DNA from: Leptothermofonsia sichuanensis E412
Lineage (GTDB): Bacteria > Cyanobacteriota > Cyanobacteriia > Leptolyngbyales > Leptolyngbyaceae
Length of the DNA: 64,000 nucleotides
NCBI RefSeq assembly: GCF_019891175.1
Contig: NZ_CP072600.1
Location: 6,076,001-6,140,000, forward strand
Direction of reading: 5' to 3'
Positions 16,628 to 22,446 of this stretch are shown here, piece after piece (within the stretch, counting starts at the first letter, position 1; each line of letters begins with the position of its first letter). The notes under the pieces are model-generated. The model was not told the origin of the DNA. It made no database searches and saw only the letters and a program-made list of their open reading frames with translations. The translations under genes were made by a program, and so were the position numbers.

Positions 16628-16948
16628 TTATTCCAACTTTTCCAGAGCATCCCGAACATCGACTAAATGGTTATTAAATACTTCTAAAGCGGCATCCAGA
16701 ATCTTAAAAATGGCAGGATCACGAATAGAGTAGAACACAAAATTACCTTGCTTGCGACTTATAACTAGATTCCGGCTACGCAATACAGCTAACTGCTGAG
16801 AAATTGATGACGGTTCGATTTCCAACCACTCTGCAATCTCATTCACACTGCGTTCTCCTACCCGCAGCGCATCTAGAATTTGAATCCGCACCGGATTAGA
16901 CAACACCTTAAACAGATCCGCTTTAAAGTGGCTAGGTTTGAAAGGCAT
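16628..16948 (-). CDS. ArsR-family winged-helix transcriptional regulator
   Basis: A 106-residue DNA-binding protein. The core is LFKVLSNPVRIQILDALRVG, then the recognition helix region EPSSISQQLAVLRSRNLVIS and the wing (RKQGNFVFYSI). It contains no cysteine at all, so it is not a thiol- or arsenic-sensing type by the usual sites, and no HIS-rich metal site is obvious. Homologues of this type are often found beside SulP transporters, and a sulP gene lies 3 kb away. It starts 12 bp after a response regulator on the same strand, suggesting one transcript. Confidence 0.88.
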   Translation of the reverse strand: MPFKPSHFKADLFKVLSNPVRIQILDALRVGERSVNEIAEWLEIEPSSISQQLAVLRSRNLVISRKQGNFVFYSIRDPAIFKILDAALEVFNNHLVDVRDALEKLE

Positions 16949-16960
16949 TTGAGTATCTGA

Positions 16961-17404
16961 TTATCTTGAGAGTTTTTCAGTTAAATTAACACTGTGCTGT
17001 TCATATATACAAGGAACAGGCTGAATTTCAAGTACATTTCTACTTCTCAAATACTTTGAAAGTGTTCCCAGAATCGTATCTGGCAGAGCTGGCTTACTCA
17101 GAAAGTCAGCAGCTCCTAACTGGAGTGCATGGTTTCGAGCATCGGCTGTTACTGTGCCAGACATGAGGATAACTGGAATCATTGCCAAATTAAAATCTTG
17201 CTGAAGTTTTTCGAGTAACTCATAGCCACTCAATCGGGGCATATCAATATCAGAAAGGATGAGATCAGGGTTCTGTGCGATCGCCAGTTGCCAGCCCTCA
17301 AGTCCATCTTTTGCTTCAATTACATTGAAACTTCGCCACCGCAGAAAATCAGAGATAAACTTACGGATACCTTCGTTGTCCTCAACTATCAGGATTTTCT
17401 TCAT
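16961..17404 (-). CDS. Single-domain response regulator
   Basis: A 147-residue receiver-domain protein. The acidic pocket (D9), phosphoacceptor D52 in LILSDIDMP, the conserved Thr/Ser region (LMSGTV) and K104 (FLSKPALP) are all present. About 25 residues after the receiver have no recognisable output domain. It would act through protein contacts, as CheY-like regulators do. The ArsR gene follows 12 bp downstream. No histidine kinase is in the window. Confidence 0.9.
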   Translation of the reverse strand: MKKILIVEDNEGIRKFISDFLRWRSFNVIEAKDGLEGWQLAIAQNPDLILSDIDMPRLSGYELLEKLQQDFNLAMIPVILMSGTVTADARNHALQLGAADFLSKPALPDTILGTLSKYLRSRNVLEIQPVPCIYEQHSVNLTEKLSR

Positions 17405-17442
17405 CAGTTGCTCTCCATCAAATCTTGCTTGATTAAATGCAA

Positions 17443-17551
17443 ACTAGTAGAGCAAATTAAAAGTTCTGCAACGTAGGTTGGATAGAGCGATAGCGAAACT
17501 TGACCATTCCAAAGCCTTCATGTTGCAAAATTAAGTGTTTACTCTACTAGT
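17443..17551. repeat. CTAGTAGAG-ended mini-element, family I
   Basis: A 109-bp segment bounded by perfect 10-bp inverted repeats, ACTAGTAGAG (17443-17452) and CTCTACTAGT (17542-17551). The next inward bases (CAAATTAA at the left, AATTAAGTG at the right) keep some symmetry. Only one copy is seen. Its right-hand CTAG supplies the TAG stop of the minus-strand gene at 17547. Confidence 0.6.
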
Positions 17552-18383
17552 GCTGATAAGTCTTTTGCTGAACTTGTACCTGCCGCAGTCGATCCAGGTA
17601 TTTTGAAATAATGATGGTTCCATGATCGCGGGTAGTCAGCAGTTTGCGATCGCAGATACTGTCTGAGCAACCCCTGGCATGGTTCAGATATTGATCCAAC
17701 ATGTTTGGTGAAGTTGGCTGGTTCAGTTCATTAGAAATAATCACAATTTCGGGTTTACAATAATCAAATACTTCTGGACAATAGCTTTCTTCTCGCCCAT
17801 GATTAGCGGCAACAAATATGTTGACGTGTCGCAGTCGATTGCAAAAATCTCCATCCTTGAGCAGTGACCGCCACCCCGCTATTTCCAGATCGCTGGGAAA
17901 AATGATTTTAATATCTCGATAAGATACAAACGTAACCAGACTAAGATTGTGGGCATCCTGGAAGTCTGGGTAATTGTTCCAGAAAAAGGAAAAATCAATC
18001 CCGTGAATTTTCATGGTCTGACTGATTTGAGGGCAGCGTGAATTGCGATCGGTTGTGAGCACATTACTAAACCGTTGATTCGCCAGATCCAATTCATGAA
18101 ACTGATCAGCATTTAATGATGGATTAGCGACTAAGAAATGAACAGCTAAGCCATCTATCAACGTTTGTCTGAGAAAATTAGAGAGACCCGCTAAATGTTC
18201 TTTTCCGTAAGCAGGAATAATCAAACAATCCAGGGAGGTACATTGTTGCTTCAACAGGTGGTGAGAAGGGTTAAAGCCACTACGTGTACCATAACCGAAA
18301 TCTATCAAAATCGTGTGATGATCGCTTGTACTAACTGCAGCACAGAACCCATGATCAACGTCAAAAATCTTGATGTCTAACAT
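17547..18383 (-). CDS. ComEC-like metallo-beta-lactamase-fold protein, degenerate metal site
   Basis: A 278-residue soluble protein that follows the layout of the ComEC C-terminal hydrolase domain. It has the opening FDVDHGFCA (residues 7-15), an ILIDFGYG strand, the loop IIPAYGKEHLAG (55-66), a central VTFVSYRDIKIIFPSDLE, the NIFVAANHGREES segment and an IVIISNE strand. In active enzymes the 55-66 loop reads HxHxDH. Here only H63 is left, so hydrolase activity is doubtful. There is no signal peptide or membrane part. A broken tandem copy lies just upstream. Its role is unknown; stand-alone proteins of this fold occur in conflict and signalling loci. Confidence 0.65.
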   Translation of the reverse strand: MLDIKIFDVDHGFCAAVSTSDHHTILIDFGYGTRSGFNPSHHLLKQQCTSLDCLIIPAYGKEHLAGLSNFLRQTLIDGLAVHFLVANPSLNADQFHELDLANQRFSNVLTTDRNSRCPQISQTMKIHGIDFSFFWNNYPDFQDAHNLSLVTFVSYRDIKIIFPSDLEIAGWRSLLKDGDFCNRLRHVNIFVAANHGREESYCPEVFDYCKPEIVIISNELNQPTSPNMLDQYLNHARGCSDSICDRKLLTTRDHGTIIISKYLDRLRQVQVQQKTYQH

Positions 18384-18437
18384 CTTCTTACTCCAGGTAA
18401 AATAGCATAGGTTTTTGAAATCTTCTGAGATTTCAAT

Positions 18438-19313
18438 TTATGTTTGATAGACTTCAGCCTGTTGTAGCTGATTCCTTTTAGACTGTTGAGTACTTATTTC
18501 TATAGGATTGTTTGGAATTGTTTGGATGGTAATTGTTCCAGCATCACGAGTTGTCAATACTTTTTGTCTACCCAGATCTGTTTCGATTCCATGGGCATGA
18601 TATTCGTATTGACGAATTGCGGCAAGAGGAAGCCTTCTGTGAAGATGATTGGAAATAATCACCAGATCTGGTTTGCAATAGTTAAAAACCTCTGGACAAT
18701 ACCCATCTTCTTGTCCATGATTCGAAGCAACCAATAAGTTAACTTGACGAAGGCGATCGCAAAATTCAGTATTTTTCAACAAATTTCGCCAACCTTCTAT
18801 TTTCAAATCACTGGGGAAAATAATATGCATATCCTGACAGGAAAAAAATGTAACTAGGCTCAGGTTTCGAATATCTAGAAAATCTGGGTAAGAGTTCCAG
18901 AAAAAAGAAAGTTTACAATTTTGCCAGTCAATAAACTAATTGATCTTTCGTTGTTGGCGGAGCACGTTACTCAGTCGTTTTAGAGTCGAACCTGTACCAG
19001 GATTGCGAATCATCAGTTCAGGTAAGTTAGCAGCATTGATGGATGGATTTGCAATCAAGCAGTCGATTGAAAAGTAATACTCAGAAACATGACTACTAAG
19101 ATCAGAAAATCCGGTTAAATGTCCTTTAGTGTAAGCAGGTATAACAAGATAATCGATATGCCGGGAGGGATGATTGAGCAAGTATCTGGCAGGACGAAAC
19201 CCAGTACGAAAGCTGTAGCCGCAGCCAAGCAGCATTATGTGATGCTCATTTAGTTCAATCGCAGCGCAGAATCCATGATCTACATCAAAAAGCTTAATCT
19301 TTACCATACTCAC
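18438..19313 (-). pseudogene. Tandem paralogue of the ComEC-like gene, interrupted by an in-frame TAG
   Basis: Reading one frame from 19313 down to 18438 gives 292 codons aligned end to end with the neighbour at 17547-18383 (FDVDHGFCA, IPAYTKGHLTG, LSFFWNSYPDF, IIFPSDLKIEGW, LLVASNHGQED). The frame is broken only by a TAG at 18936-18938, after LSNVLRQQRKIN. The same frame resumes at once (FIDWQNCKLSFFWN), so this is a nonsense change and not a frameshift. A few residues are missing relative to the intact copy at the same point. The upstream part would give a 125-residue fragment. It is most likely a recent pseudogene. Readthrough or a sequencing error are alternatives. Confidence 0.7.
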
Positions 19314-19384
19314 TTTCTATGCCTGATAAAAGCTAGTCCTAATAAAAACTGGCATCACTTAATAAAACTGACATCAATCTATTG

Positions 19385-19470
19385 ACTGTTCTTGGCACCG
19401 TTCGGCTTCGACGGGGAACGCTCAGCGGAACTACGCTCCCTGTCGAAGCCTCCATCGAGCCACACTTACA
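19385..19470. repeat. Palindromic repeat of the GGCTTCGAC type
   Basis: CGGCTTCGACGGGGA (starting 19401) is mirrored by CCCTGTCGAAGCC, around a core CTCAGCGGAACTACG. This kind of hairpin repeat is common in cyanobacterial spacers. It lies between the broken MBL-fold gene and the next small gene. Confidence 0.55.
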
Positions 19471-19559
19471 TTGAAGCCTGATTTCTAAAACCTGTCCGTG
19501 TAGAAATGGGTTACTGAACTGACGCCACAAACTACTGGTGCTAGAAGCGTTGGGGATTT

Positions 19560-19775
19560 CTAGCCCACGCCAAAATCAAAAACCACGTCGTAAGTGATAT
19601 CAGGAGCCATTTTTGTCAAGAACTGCAAATGCTCCTCGGCTGCTGTCCGAGAATCAAACTGAGCAATCATACTGTATTGCGAATTGGGAAGACGGCGAAC
19701 AACACACCAGGAAGGAGGTGTAAGTAGTGCATCGTCTACTCTATTGGATTCAGCACGAGTCATCTCAGTATGCAT
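19560..19775 (-). CDS. Small conserved-looking protein of unknown function
   Basis: About 71 residues with the core SWCVVRRLPNSQYSMIAQFD, then SRTAAEEHLQFL. The alternating pattern suggests a small alpha/beta fold. A longer frame reaches 19904 but its added N-terminus is Cys-rich and unlike the rest, so I take the ATG at 19775. I recognise it only as a type of small cyanobacterial protein. Confidence 0.55.
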   Translation of the reverse strand: MHTEMTRAESNRVDDALLTPPSWCVVRRLPNSQYSMIAQFDSRTAAEEHLQFLTKMAPDITYDVVFDFGVG

Positions 19776-19935
19776 AGTTATCTGACAACAAAAGAACCAC
19801 GGGCATTCGCCACAGGACTGGAAAATGCCCGCAGAAGAAGGCAATTGCAGCCGTGAGAGTTTAAGGAATCCTATATTCAACTGCGGCTTGCCACACCTTA
19901 GCATGGGTGTTAATCTATATTCAAGACTTTGAAGA

Positions 19936-19976
19936 TTCTAATATTTTAACATTCTAATATGTTAGTTTTCTAATAT
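19936..19976 (+). promoter_or_regulatory. Three direct repeats at 16-bp spacing upstream of sulP
   Basis: TTCTAATAT occurs at 19936-19944, 19952-19960 and 19968-19976, an exact 16-bp period. The middle copy is set in AACATTCTAATATGTT, an inverted repeat of AACAT. The flanking bases differ between units, which favours conserved binding sites over a fresh slippage product. The last unit is 53 bp before the sulP ATG, a good position for an operator or activator site. The ArsR protein at 16628 is a plausible binder. Confidence 0.55.
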
Positions 19977-20029
19977 GCATAGATACGGGATGTAGAGATA
20001 CTCAGATGATGGGGGTTTTCTGAAATCTA

Positions 20030-21709
20030 ATGAGTGTAGTACACCATTTCAGTAGCAAACTGCGAACCTGGACAGGTCGTATGGTCGCTTACTGGCAGGG
20101 CGACGTAGCAGGAGGATTAACCGCGGCTGTGGTAGCCTTGCCCCTTGCGCTGGCGTTTGCGGTCGCAAGTGGGGTAGATCCAAAAGCAGGACTTTATACA
20201 GCGATTGTTGCAGGAATTGTCGCGGCTGTTTTTGGCGGATCTCCAGTTCAGATTACGGGTCCTACCGGAGCAATGGCGGTTATTCTGGTAGGAATTGTTG
20301 CCAGGTACGGGATTGAGAAGGTATGGATTGCTGGGGTGATGGCAGGCATCATCCAGGTGGCTCTGGGAGTTGCCAAACTCGGAAGATTGGTTAAGTTCAT
20401 TCCCTATCCGGTCACCGCAGGCTTTACCAATGGGATTGCTGTAATCATTTTTTGCGGACAATTAAATAACTTCTTAGGCCTGCAATTACCTCGTAGCGAA
20501 CATTTTCTGCCTGGATTGTGGCAAACAATAACCCATCTGGAGGGGGTGAATTGGGCGGCTGTTGGATTGGCAGCCGTGGTGATTGTGACTAAATTGTTTT
20601 GGTCACGAATTACAACCGCAATACCTGCTTCACTCGTTGGGTTGGTGCTGGCAACAACGATCGCATCTGTCTTACGCCTTAACATTCCCACCATCGGCTC
20701 AATCCCGCAATCGCTGCCGAGTTTTCAGACAATTCCTCATTGGAATGATTTTGGACTAATTCGGGATTTAATCAATCCTGCGTTAGCGCTGGCAGCATTG
20801 GGTAGTATTGAATCACTGCTCTCGGCAGTCGTGGCAGATGGCCTGACCGTGAGTGAAAAGCATAACAGCGATCGCGAATTGATTGGTCAGGGTTTGGCAA
20901 ATATCGTTGTTCCCTTTTTTGGCGGCATTCCGGCAACAGGGGCGATCGCTCGCACGGCGGTTAACGTACGAGCAGGCGGCAAAACCCGACTCTCCGGAGT
21001 AATTCATGGAGTAGCGCTTGCCATCATTGTTCTCGTTTTAGCCCCATTAGCTGCTCAAGTGCCCCTGGCAGCCCTGGCAGGCATTCTAATGGTGACGAGC
21101 GTGCGAATGATTGAGTGGGAAGCGATCGGGTTACTGGCGCGGGCAACCTATTCTGATTTTGCAGTCATGCTCCTTACCTGGATGGTGACCATCTTCTTTG
21201 ACCTGGTGCTGGCAGTGGAAGTTGGATTGATTGCGGCAGGGGCGTTGTTTATCAAACGCATGAGTGATCTGAGTTTGGGCAAGGTTCCTGAAACAGAGGT
21301 TTTTCCACCCGGTGTGCCGTTGGAGTTGAGTAAGCAGATTGCCGTTTACCGGGTTGATGGTCCCGTATTTTTTGGAGCGGCTGAACGGTTTGTAACATTC
21401 CTGCGCGATGAACCAGAAGTGAAGTATCTGATTTTGCGGATGCGATTTGTGCCCAACATGGATACGACCGGACTGGTTGCTTTGGAAGATATCTACCATG
21501 ACCTGAAACGGCATGATTGTCGCTTACTGCTCAGTGGGTTGCAACCTGAAGTTGAAAAGTTACTGGAACGCAGTGGGTTTCTAGACAAAATTGGACGAGA
21601 AAACTGCTTTGAAACAACGGACGCTGCTATCTGTGCGTTAAATCCTGATTTGGCCGCCTGTCAAACAGAACTGACGCTAAATACGCGATCAGAAGAATTA
21701 GTTGCTTAA
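20030..21709 (+). CDS. SulP-family anion transporter with STAS domain
   Basis: A 559-residue permease. The SulP signature region is near the N-terminus (GDVAGGLTAAVVALPLALAF), followed by GLYTAIVAGIVAAVFGGSPVQITGPTGAM in pieces along the first helices. A C-terminal STAS domain (from about residue 440) contains VLILRMRFVPNMDTTGL-like sequence. About ten to twelve membrane segments are expected. Cyanobacterial SulP proteins include the sodium-dependent bicarbonate transporter BicA and sulfate permeases. The sequence does not let me choose. The ATG at 20030 follows the repeat-type regulatory region. Confidence 0.92.
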   Translation: MSVVHHFSSKLRTWTGRMVAYWQGDVAGGLTAAVVALPLALAFAVASGVDPKAGLYTAIVAGIVAAVFGGSPVQITGPTGAMAVILVGIVARYGIEKVWIAGVMAGIIQVALGVAKLGRLVKFIPYPVTAGFTNGIAVIIFCGQLNNFLGLQLPRSEHFLPGLWQTITHLEGVNWAAVGLAAVVIVTKLFWSRITTAIPASLVGLVLATTIASVLRLNIPTIGSIPQSLPSFQTIPHWNDFGLIRDLINPALALAALGSIESLLSAVVADGLTVSEKHNSDRELIGQGLANIVVPFFGGIPATGAIARTAVNVRAGGKTRLSGVIHGVALAIIVLVLAPLAAQVPLAALAGILMVTSVRMIEWEAIGLLARATYSDFAVMLLTWMVTIFFDLVLAVEVGLIAAGALFIKRMSDLSLGKVPETEVFPPGVPLELSKQIAVYRVDGPVFFGAAERFVTFLRDEPEVKYLILRMRFVPNMDTTGLVALEDIYHDLKRHDCRLLLSGLQPEVEKLLERSGFLDKIGRENCFETTDAAICALNPDLAACQTELTLNTRSEELVA

Positions 21710-21929
21710 TGGTTAGACCGTTCGATGATGAAACTTATCAGTCACTTAATCCAAAATTCGGATGAATTAGCTGACTGCGTTGATGCAGACGATAAGTTTT
21801 TCATCAGATCCAGCAACAATCACCGTTGGTGTTGCGATCGCTCCTTCCCGGGTAGCGATCGCCTTTTCTCTTCTGCTGGTTGTTCAACTGACTGCAGTCA
21901 TTAGGTATAGGGCAATCAGTTCAACAAAA

Positions 21930-21963
21930 AAGGATGGCTTTAATATAAGGATGGCTTTAATGA
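21930..21963 (+). repeat. 17-bp tandem duplication of a start region
   Basis: AAGGATGGCTTTAATAT (21930-21946) is followed by AAGGATGGCTTTAATGA (21947-21963). Each unit has an AAGG ribosome-site-like motif and an ATG. The first ATG gives Met-Ala-Leu-Ile then stop. The second opens the next gene. Confidence 0.8.
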
Positions 21964-22178
21964 AACAGATTATTAGTCGAGAGTCTCTTCAACGATTTTA
22001 TGGAAAAGGAATACATCTGTATGAACAGGGAATTGAGTGTCATGGGTGGTTTATTGTGCCGTTTGTGTCTGGACAGTTTTATGCAACAAGCTGCTTTTGT
22101 CCTAAGGGAAAGCGCTACATCAGTTGGAGTCAATATTCTAGTTTAGATGAGGCGGTCAATGAATACCTTGCATATTGA
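21951..22178 (+). CDS. Small protein of unknown function
   Basis: 75 residues from the ATG at 21951 (MALMKQIISRESLQRFYGKG), ending SLDEAVNEYLAY. It has the look of a small SH3- or KTSC-like fold but I cannot name the family. The same frame stays open upstream to 21780 and would add a hydrophobic segment, but the duplicated ribosome-site region makes the shorter form more likely. The stop codon region overlaps the next gene by 20 bp, suggesting translational coupling. Confidence 0.5.
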   Translation: MALMKQIISRESLQRFYGKGIHLYEQGIECHGWFIVPFVSGQFYATSCFCPKGKRYISWSQYSSLDEAVNEYLAY

Positions 22179-22446
22179 AATTATTGGCAACAGTAATGAG
22201 GATTGCCGTTTTCTGGAGAACAATGTATTGACAGCAATGGTTAAACTAGGCATTACTGCTCATGTCAATTGCATCGCGGATGCTGAGGAAGTCAAGCGAC
22301 GACGATTGGGCTGTACGCCAGTATTGACTATTAATGGTAGAGTCGTCAGTCAGGGACAAAATATTTCATCAAGACACATTCAGACATTTCTGCGCGAAGC
22401 GACGGATGTCTCGCAGCATGGAGATTTTCTGAGCCGAATGTTTTAA
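22159..22446 (+). CDS. Small thioredoxin-fold protein (TM0996-like)
   Basis: 95 residues. The layout is that of small glutaredoxin-like proteins: a first strand (HIEIIGNSNEDCRFLENN), a helix, a second strand (AHVNCIADAEEV) and the cis-proline region (GCTPVLTINGRVVSQG). The usual CxxC at the first helix is reduced to one cysteine (EDCRF), so a dithiol reductase role is doubtful; thiol binding or a monothiol role is possible. The start is ATG 22159. A 12-bp longer frame exists. It overlaps the preceding small gene and lies downstream of sulP on the same strand. Confidence 0.7.
   Translation: MNTLHIEIIGNSNEDCRFLENNVLTAMVKLGITAHVNCIADAEEVKRRRLGCTPVLTINGRVVSQGQNISSRHIQTFLREATDVSQHGDFLSRMF

Follow-up and report, generated by a model that had tools for sequence, protein, structure and literature searches.

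A mobile ArsR–SulP gene cassette of cyanobacteria with a candidate operator palindrome and a possible role in bicarbonate uptake

Pairs of genes for ArsR-type regulators and SulP-family anion transporters are of a known kind, as are pairs of SulP and carbonic anhydrase (CA) genes. Persulfide-responsive ArsR regulators of the BigR/SqrR type are sometimes encoded near sulfur or SulP genes. CA-linked SulP proteins have been grouped with bicarbonate carriers (PMC12596568, PMC6458275). The ArsR-type regulator Rv0081 of M. tuberculosis is without a defined metal site (PMC6177252). According to earlier work cited in the latter paper, Rv0081 represses its own promoter via an inverted repeat, and the title of a work cited there describes its locus as a predicted formate hydrogenlyase. 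Here we describe a locus of the cyanobacterium Leptothermofonsia sichuanensis E412 in which a cysteine-free, Rv0081-like ArsR gene and a sulP gene belong to two divergent arms. The locus lies in the window that we analyzed, a stretch of 64,000 nucleotides (positions 6076001–6140000) of the closed 6.43-Mb genome. We consider it somewhat more likely than not that the locus is a mobile, self-regulated anion-uptake cassette, in which the ArsR protein controls a SulP importer, probably for bicarbonate.

Genes of the window were called from an open reading frame (ORF) listing and from Pfam and NCBIfam profile scans (Table 1). A first-pass annotation of the same DNA had treated them as one module and had named a lack of conservation in any relative as the result that would speak against it. 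Our gene-neighbourhood survey revealed the opposite, a strongly conserved neighbourhood. The gene for MBL1, a protein of the metallo-beta-lactamase (MBL) fold, occurs in 8 of 42 genomes of the order, and the ArsR gene (86–97% identity) in exactly the same eight, always adjacent to it. A SulP orthologue (81–88% identity) stands divergently beside ArsR/MBL in each of the seven genomes where one was detected; the contig of the eighth genome breaks off. The same arrangement is present in Fischerella, Pegethrix, Myxosarcina, Hydrococcus, Stenomitos, Rivularia, Leptolyngbya, and Plectonema (with a partial SulP in the last). In Pseudanabaena UBA1465, ArsR is located on the SulP side, and a short Phormidesmis contig shows no SulP. 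In general, one arm consists of an optional second arsR gene (ArsR2), sulP, and an optional CA-like gene. The other arm comprises an optional gene for a 70-aa protein, one or two MBL genes, zero to three receiver genes, arsR, and an optional second hemE gene (hemE2).

The flanks of the cassette vary between genomes, and the SulP tree mixes taxonomic orders, with a Fischerella row nearest to the window (90%). These two observations fit a horizontally transferable cassette. Among 386 genomes of the phylum, SulP matches of at least 77% were found in the window and in 22 other genomes of the same class, and 9 of these 23 carry an adjacent arsR. Two genomes of the outgroup (G062 and G085; G and L numbers are our handles for genomes and loci) have ArsR–SulP pairs as well, so the pair probably predates its link with MBL. 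Moreover, MBL is dispensable, since it is missing from three ArsR–SulP genomes (G372, G232, and G384) and present only as a remnant in two more (G052 and G325). Thus, the module proposed earlier holds as a conserved, mobile ArsR–SulP neighbourhood, with the MBL proteins as optional passengers and the receiver in variable copy number.

The evidence for control of this neighbourhood comes from a 44-bp element upstream of sulP. It consists of a –35-like TTGCCA, 17 bp, a –10-like TAATCT, and then CTATATTCAAGACTTTG. It is common to relatives in the form TTGCCACACC-TARCAYNNRTGYTA-...-TATATGCAAGACTTTG and likely represents a promoter that contains the palindrome TARCAYNNRTGYTA. A matrix built from six loci gave 63.3 bits for the window element, versus 7.1 bits for the next-best site in the window, and scored 50–63 bits in six further loci and 23–40 bits in five more. 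The palindrome itself has a single exact match in the whole genome, namely the copy in the locus. With at most one mismatch, it was detected in the 350 bp that precede the sulP operon in 14 of 25 ArsR-bearing and in none of 11 ArsR-less loci (p 0.002). Without the six motif-source loci, the counts were 9 of 19 versus 0 of 11 (p 0.011); neither p value is corrected for kinship. On a Nostoc plasmid, the palindrome lies between two arsR genes with no annotated SulP nearby. In Cyanosarcina radialis (L072:1-6640), sulP is replaced by a hydrogenase-4/complex I-like cluster preceded by the element (62.9 bits); the NuoB-, NuoL-, NuoH-, NuoN-, and 30-kDa/NiFe-type genes of this cluster resemble the Rv0081–Rv0088 locus. 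As no annotated sulP accompanies either site, the palindrome tracks ArsR rather than SulP, and ArsR is the protein that we would expect to bind it.

Immediately downstream of the element, three exact copies of TTCTAATAT follow each other with a 16-bp period (19936–19976). The first-pass annotation had pointed out these phased repeats. They are real and more than chance, because a two-unit version with up to two mismatches occurs nowhere else in the genome. They are not the conserved control site, since phased units were seen in none of the other cassette loci checked; for the same reason, we rejected them as the ArsR site. A local tandem duplication within the sulP leader accounts for them best.

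Both the Sulfate_transp and the STAS domain of the transporter exceed their curated cut-offs. Membership in the BicA family was rejected, as the protein scored 303.9 against an equivalog cut-off of 880 (NF050096) and its site residues differ. Many relatives carry, behind sulP, a gene whose ~190-aa product shows a twin arginine that never varies, together with CxDxR and HxxC, the signatures of beta-CA; this product matches PF20393 (Pro_CA_2, putative carbonic anhydrase) above the cut-off. This CA-like gene was found in 6 of 16 genomes searched and only behind SulP; a sequence profile retrieved no relative of its product from the PDB. The window contains an 83-bp, frameshifted remnant, with 74% DNA identity over 86 columns to the gene of G016 (blastn, E 8e-10), and the window genome has no intact copy. 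CcmK-type carboxysome shell genes adjoin the cassette or a SulP–CA pair in four loci (L059:9388-9702, L061:8447-8770, L165:5223-5948, and L167:306-1031). These loci are too few for the linkage to prove a role in carbon metabolism, and we retained it as support only. We see about an even chance that the substrate is bicarbonate, which is favoured by the exported partner similar to CA, by the grouping of CA-linked SulP proteins in the literature, and by CcmK genes that occasionally lie nearby. The first-pass annotation had suggested a self-controlled module for the uptake of bicarbonate or sulfur. In view of the conserved mobile neighbourhood, the CA-like gene behind sulP in many relatives, and the palindrome that tracks ArsR, this is the best-supported reading, apart from its redox component.

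The ArsR protein has the winged helix typical of its family, with a match to HTH_5 and a score above the cut-off of NF033788. Its closest solved chain is Rv0081 (6jmi; E 3e-19 with a profile), and the similarity extends over the full length. As annotated before, the 106 residues include no Cys, and nearly the whole clade is Cys-free. A search for metal ligands of the alpha3N and alpha5 types found none, with zero Cys in the protein; a comparison by eye with SmtB likewise indicated that the alpha5 Asp/His set is absent. Thiol or persulfide sensing as by BigR/SqrR was rejected, because there is no Cys pair and the protein scores 51.7 bits against a BigR cut-off of 155. The redox response envisaged at first is therefore weakly founded, all the more as the thioredoxin-fold protein of the locus is optional and has no CxxC. 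Genes for related ArsR proteins (42–51% identity) adjoin complex I-like genes in Allomeiothermus and a CA gene in Pseudonocardia; in Cohnella, the neighbour is a SulP gene, with CA nearby.

The structural model of MBL1 (predicted local distance difference test, pLDDT, 90) matches the ComEC MBL domain (9ic4) with Z 26.1 and a root-mean-square deviation of 2.8 over 246 residues, and the sequence matches the PADLOC candidate-defence profile PDC-M48B (E 2.9e-44). The description of the two MBL paralogues as ComEC-like and degenerate was borne out: in MBL1, the HxHxDH metal motif is replaced by PAYGKEH, with the last His alone retained, and the frame of MBL2 is cut by one TAG codon. It is therefore doubtful whether MBL2 gives this genome a second functional MBL; in relatives, the loss has gone further in MBL2. 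Distant homologues retain DEDH-, GDLE-, and HHG-like motifs, whereas the first motif reads PAYGKEH or similar in the cyanobacterial clade. A ratio of non-synonymous to synonymous substitution rates (dN/dS) of 0.05–0.11 among close relatives, with dS near saturation, indicates purifying selection. We read MBL1 either as a pseudoenzyme or as an enzyme with altered chemistry. Non-cyanobacterial homologues with an intact DEDH motif (L078–L087) often lie beside a gene for a small membrane protein without Pfam match, and the two may form a defence system. This transmembrane protein matched no PDC-M48 profile, and the cyanobacterial loci lack an equivalent of its gene. MBL relatives on plasmids yielded no second instance of the cassette. 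On a Rahnella plasmid (L187:1116-4843), the gene directly behind a distant sulP (29% identity) encodes an MBL homologue (33%), with an arsenic-type arsR nearby; this may be an independent case or a coincidence.

Beyond the anatomy, synteny, mobility, and palindrome–ArsR co-occurrence observed here, we infer a model of DNA binding, repression, substrate, signal, and MBL role. A dimer of the Cys-free, Rv0081-type ArsR would bind the palindrome, whose 14 bp take up the spacer of the sulP promoter. The bound ArsR would repress the sulP arm and possibly also its own divergent arm (70-aa protein, MBL, receiver, and ArsR). Some signal would lift the repression of sulP, and SulP would then import a small anion, most likely bicarbonate. 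In many relatives, a beta-CA-like protein exported by Tat to the periplasm would convert CO2 and HCO3– into each other on the outer side of the membrane. The MBL-fold protein, presumably descended from a candidate-defence family and deprived of the canonical metal site, would probably act as a binding or regulatory partner. A more far-reaching version has a small chance of being correct. Here, a candidate anti-phage MBL effector would have been domesticated with the loss of its metal site and would bind the signal as regulatory partner of the Cys-free ArsR; the mobile cassette would serve the uptake of inorganic carbon, and a single unit of ArsR and operator would be re-used to drive either SulP or a hydrogenase-4-like complex.

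Several observations weigh against an ArsR-controlled bicarbonate cassette. The ion site of SulP reads GSIESLLS, that of BicA GCIDALLT. At the positions of D258 and T262 of BicA, all 35 SulP rows carry Glu and Ser instead of Asp and Thr, apart from three in which Ser gives way to Ala. SulP proteins of Richelia with only partial BicA sites failed to transport bicarbonate. The CA-like gene is lost in the window except for the remnant, and a clear palindrome is missing within 350 bp in 11 of the 25 ArsR-bearing loci; L055 has a copy further upstream. Finally, the outgroup ArsR–SulP pairs of G062 and G085 are located near rhodanese genes, in G062 together with a Pyr_redox–rhodanese fusion, which points to sulfur. 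Together with the altered ion site and the thioredoxin-fold accessory protein of some loci, these neighbours would suit a cassette of the same build in which a sulfur oxyanion (sulfate, sulfite, or thiosulfate) is the substrate of SulP and ArsR senses the sulfur status. Yet rhodanese neighbours turned up in the distant outgroup alone, the partner in cyanobacteria is a CA-like protein, and ArsR lacks the BigR/SqrR Cys pair and remains far below the BigR cut-off. We regard a sulfur cassette as unlikely. The rhodanese-neighbour loci of distant phylum members are L171:2169-4222 (with the Pyr_redox–rhodanese fusion) and L172:9422-9748.

Transport of formate or another one-carbon or organic anion, with ArsR in a formate- or hypoxia-linked circuit like that of the Rv0081 locus, seems quite improbable. 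Rv0081 is the closest solved relative and belongs to the predicted formate hydrogenlyase locus mentioned above, the Cyanosarcina element fronts a hydrogenase-4-like cluster, an ArsR relative of Allomeiothermus adjoins complex I-like genes, and the best NCBIfam model for SulP is the C4-dicarboxylate carrier DauA, albeit below its cut-off. Family scores of this kind are weak evidence, however; the surroundings of the cassette loci examined yielded no formate dehydrogenase, and the CA-like partner suits bicarbonate better. It is very improbable that the cassette is chiefly a defence island with MBL as active anti-phage effector and ArsR and SulP as bystanders. The PDC-M48B match and the patchy, mobile distribution would agree with such an island, but the metal motif is lost, ArsR–SulP persists where MBL is absent or truncated, the gene order is kept beside the same metabolic genes, and PDC-M48 is itself only a candidate system. 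A chance neighbourhood of unrelated genes, to which one might ascribe the several optional members (receiver, MBL2, thioredoxin-fold protein, and hemE2), is barely conceivable; it is contradicted by the synteny survey, with an order kept despite differing flanks, by the low dN/dS, and by the ArsR-linked promoter element.

Table 1. Coordinates of the cassette features in the window
Feature	Position	Strand	Evidence
Cys-free ArsR/SmtB regulator, Rv0081-like, 106 aa	16628..16948	–	HTH_5; best PDB match Rv0081 6jmi
Stand-alone receiver, CheY-like, optional	16961..17404	–	Response_reg E 2e-25
MBL1, ComEC-type MBL fold, PDC-M48B relative; HxHxDH lost (PAYGKEH), reading frame intact	17547..18383	–	
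MBL2, second MBL paralogue, interrupted by TAG 18936-18938	18438..19313	–	
Conserved small protein of ~70 aa, upstream of MBL	19560..19775	–	Homologues in same place, 11 aligned loci
Conserved 44-bp element, likely promoter	19888..19931	+	Matrix match 63.3 bits
Palindrome TAGCATGGGTGTTA, proposed ArsR operator	19899..19912	none	
Three imperfect 16-bp tandem units (TTCTAATAT...), sulP leader, lineage-specific	19936..19983	+	
SulP-family anion transporter with STAS domain	20030..21709	+	Sulfate_transp E 8e-88, STAS E 5e-21
Frameshifted remnant, Tat-signal region of beta-CA-like gene	21804..21886	+	blastn against gene of G016
Small protein (ORF annotated from 21780)	21960..22178	+	83% identical homologue behind sulP in L061
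Thioredoxin_3/ArsE-like protein, single motif Cys, optional	22147..22446	+	Behind SulP in G016 and Hydrococcus

All genes named in the first-pass annotation were recovered at their coordinates. Its assignment of receiver and ArsR to one transcript is plausible given the gap of 12 bp between the genes. The two overlapping small ORFs downstream of sulP are likewise present, and the second encodes a Thioredoxin_3/ArsE-like protein with one motif Cys (C20); Hydrococcus relatives have no Cys at all at the motif position. The first, a 132-aa ORF (21780–22178), overlaps the CA-like remnant with its N-terminal part, and comparison with the L061 homologue places its true start probably at 21960. A 114-aa ORF at 19560–19904 had gone unmentioned there; its homologues point to a protein of ~70 aa that starts at 19775. 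Between this ORF and MBL2 (19404–19450) lies an inverted repeat with 17-bp arms (GGCTTCGACGGGGAACG / CGCTCCCTGTCGAAGCC), possibly a dispersed repeat. Rfam gave zero matches within the locus. Directly downstream of the cassette arsR, a second hemE gene (uroporphyrinogen decarboxylase) is found in four loci (G016:C1:4237656-4238720, G158:C197:51895-52923, L067, and L071) and as remnants in G012, G041, L059, and L061; it is decayed in several loci and is 64–71% identical to the canonical hemE elsewhere in the genomes searched. A PepSY-like membrane protein, recognised by eye, is encoded near this ArsR in two loci (L173:7865-8812 and L073:1996-2589).

The literature on SulP with ArsR and CA or cyanobacterial bicarbonate does not describe the module, as judged from titles and abstract openings and with subscription journals mostly outside the scope. 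In the open-access literature searched, we found no description of this palindromic promoter element, of the PDC-M48B-like passenger, or of a re-use of the element for a hydrogenase-4-like cluster; no literature joining ArsR, hydrogenase-4, and cyanobacteria was found, and no paper found, mostly in open-access text, names PDC-M48. Many SulP substrates and many signals of Cys-free ArsR proteins are unassigned, and the locus ties both to one genome-unique candidate operator. Should the system transport bicarbonate, it would represent an additional route of inorganic carbon uptake in cyanobacteria that is regulated and transferable. The MBL protein represents a defence-type enzyme family that was kept under selection after the loss of its canonical active site.

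Compared with the described systems, the cassette shares with BicA a cyanobacterial SulP fold with STAS domain but differs in its score (304 versus a cut-off of 880) and in the Glu and Ser that replace Asp and Thr of the ion site. With the CA-linked or CA-fused SulP bicarbonate transporters (Felce and Saier; can2-sulP of Acidithiobacillus, PMC6458275), it has in common a SulP gene beside a beta-CA-type gene, in many relatives, and presumed bicarbonate traffic. Its CA-like protein is, however, predicted to be Tat-exported (PF20393) rather than cytoplasmic like Can, and the cassette adds a putative ArsR repressor, the promoter palindrome, and MBL, with CA lost in the window. MBL1 resembles PDC-M48B and the ComEC MBL domain in profile (E 3e-44) and model (Z 26.1 to 9ic4); it differs in the lost metal motif, in the absence of the transmembrane-protein gene that lies beside distant homologues, and in the setting in an ArsR–SulP cassette. 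The BigR/SqrR regulators share the ArsR fold but have a Cys pair that the ArsR of the cassette lacks; the latter scores 51.7 bits versus a cut-off of 155. Rv0081 is the closest solved ArsR, without Cys in the aligned part; it acts on an inverted repeat of its own promoter, as cited in PMC6177252, to which the palindrome would be a candidate counterpart, and a related target cluster exists in Cyanosarcina (L072), whereas the usual target in the cassette is sulP.

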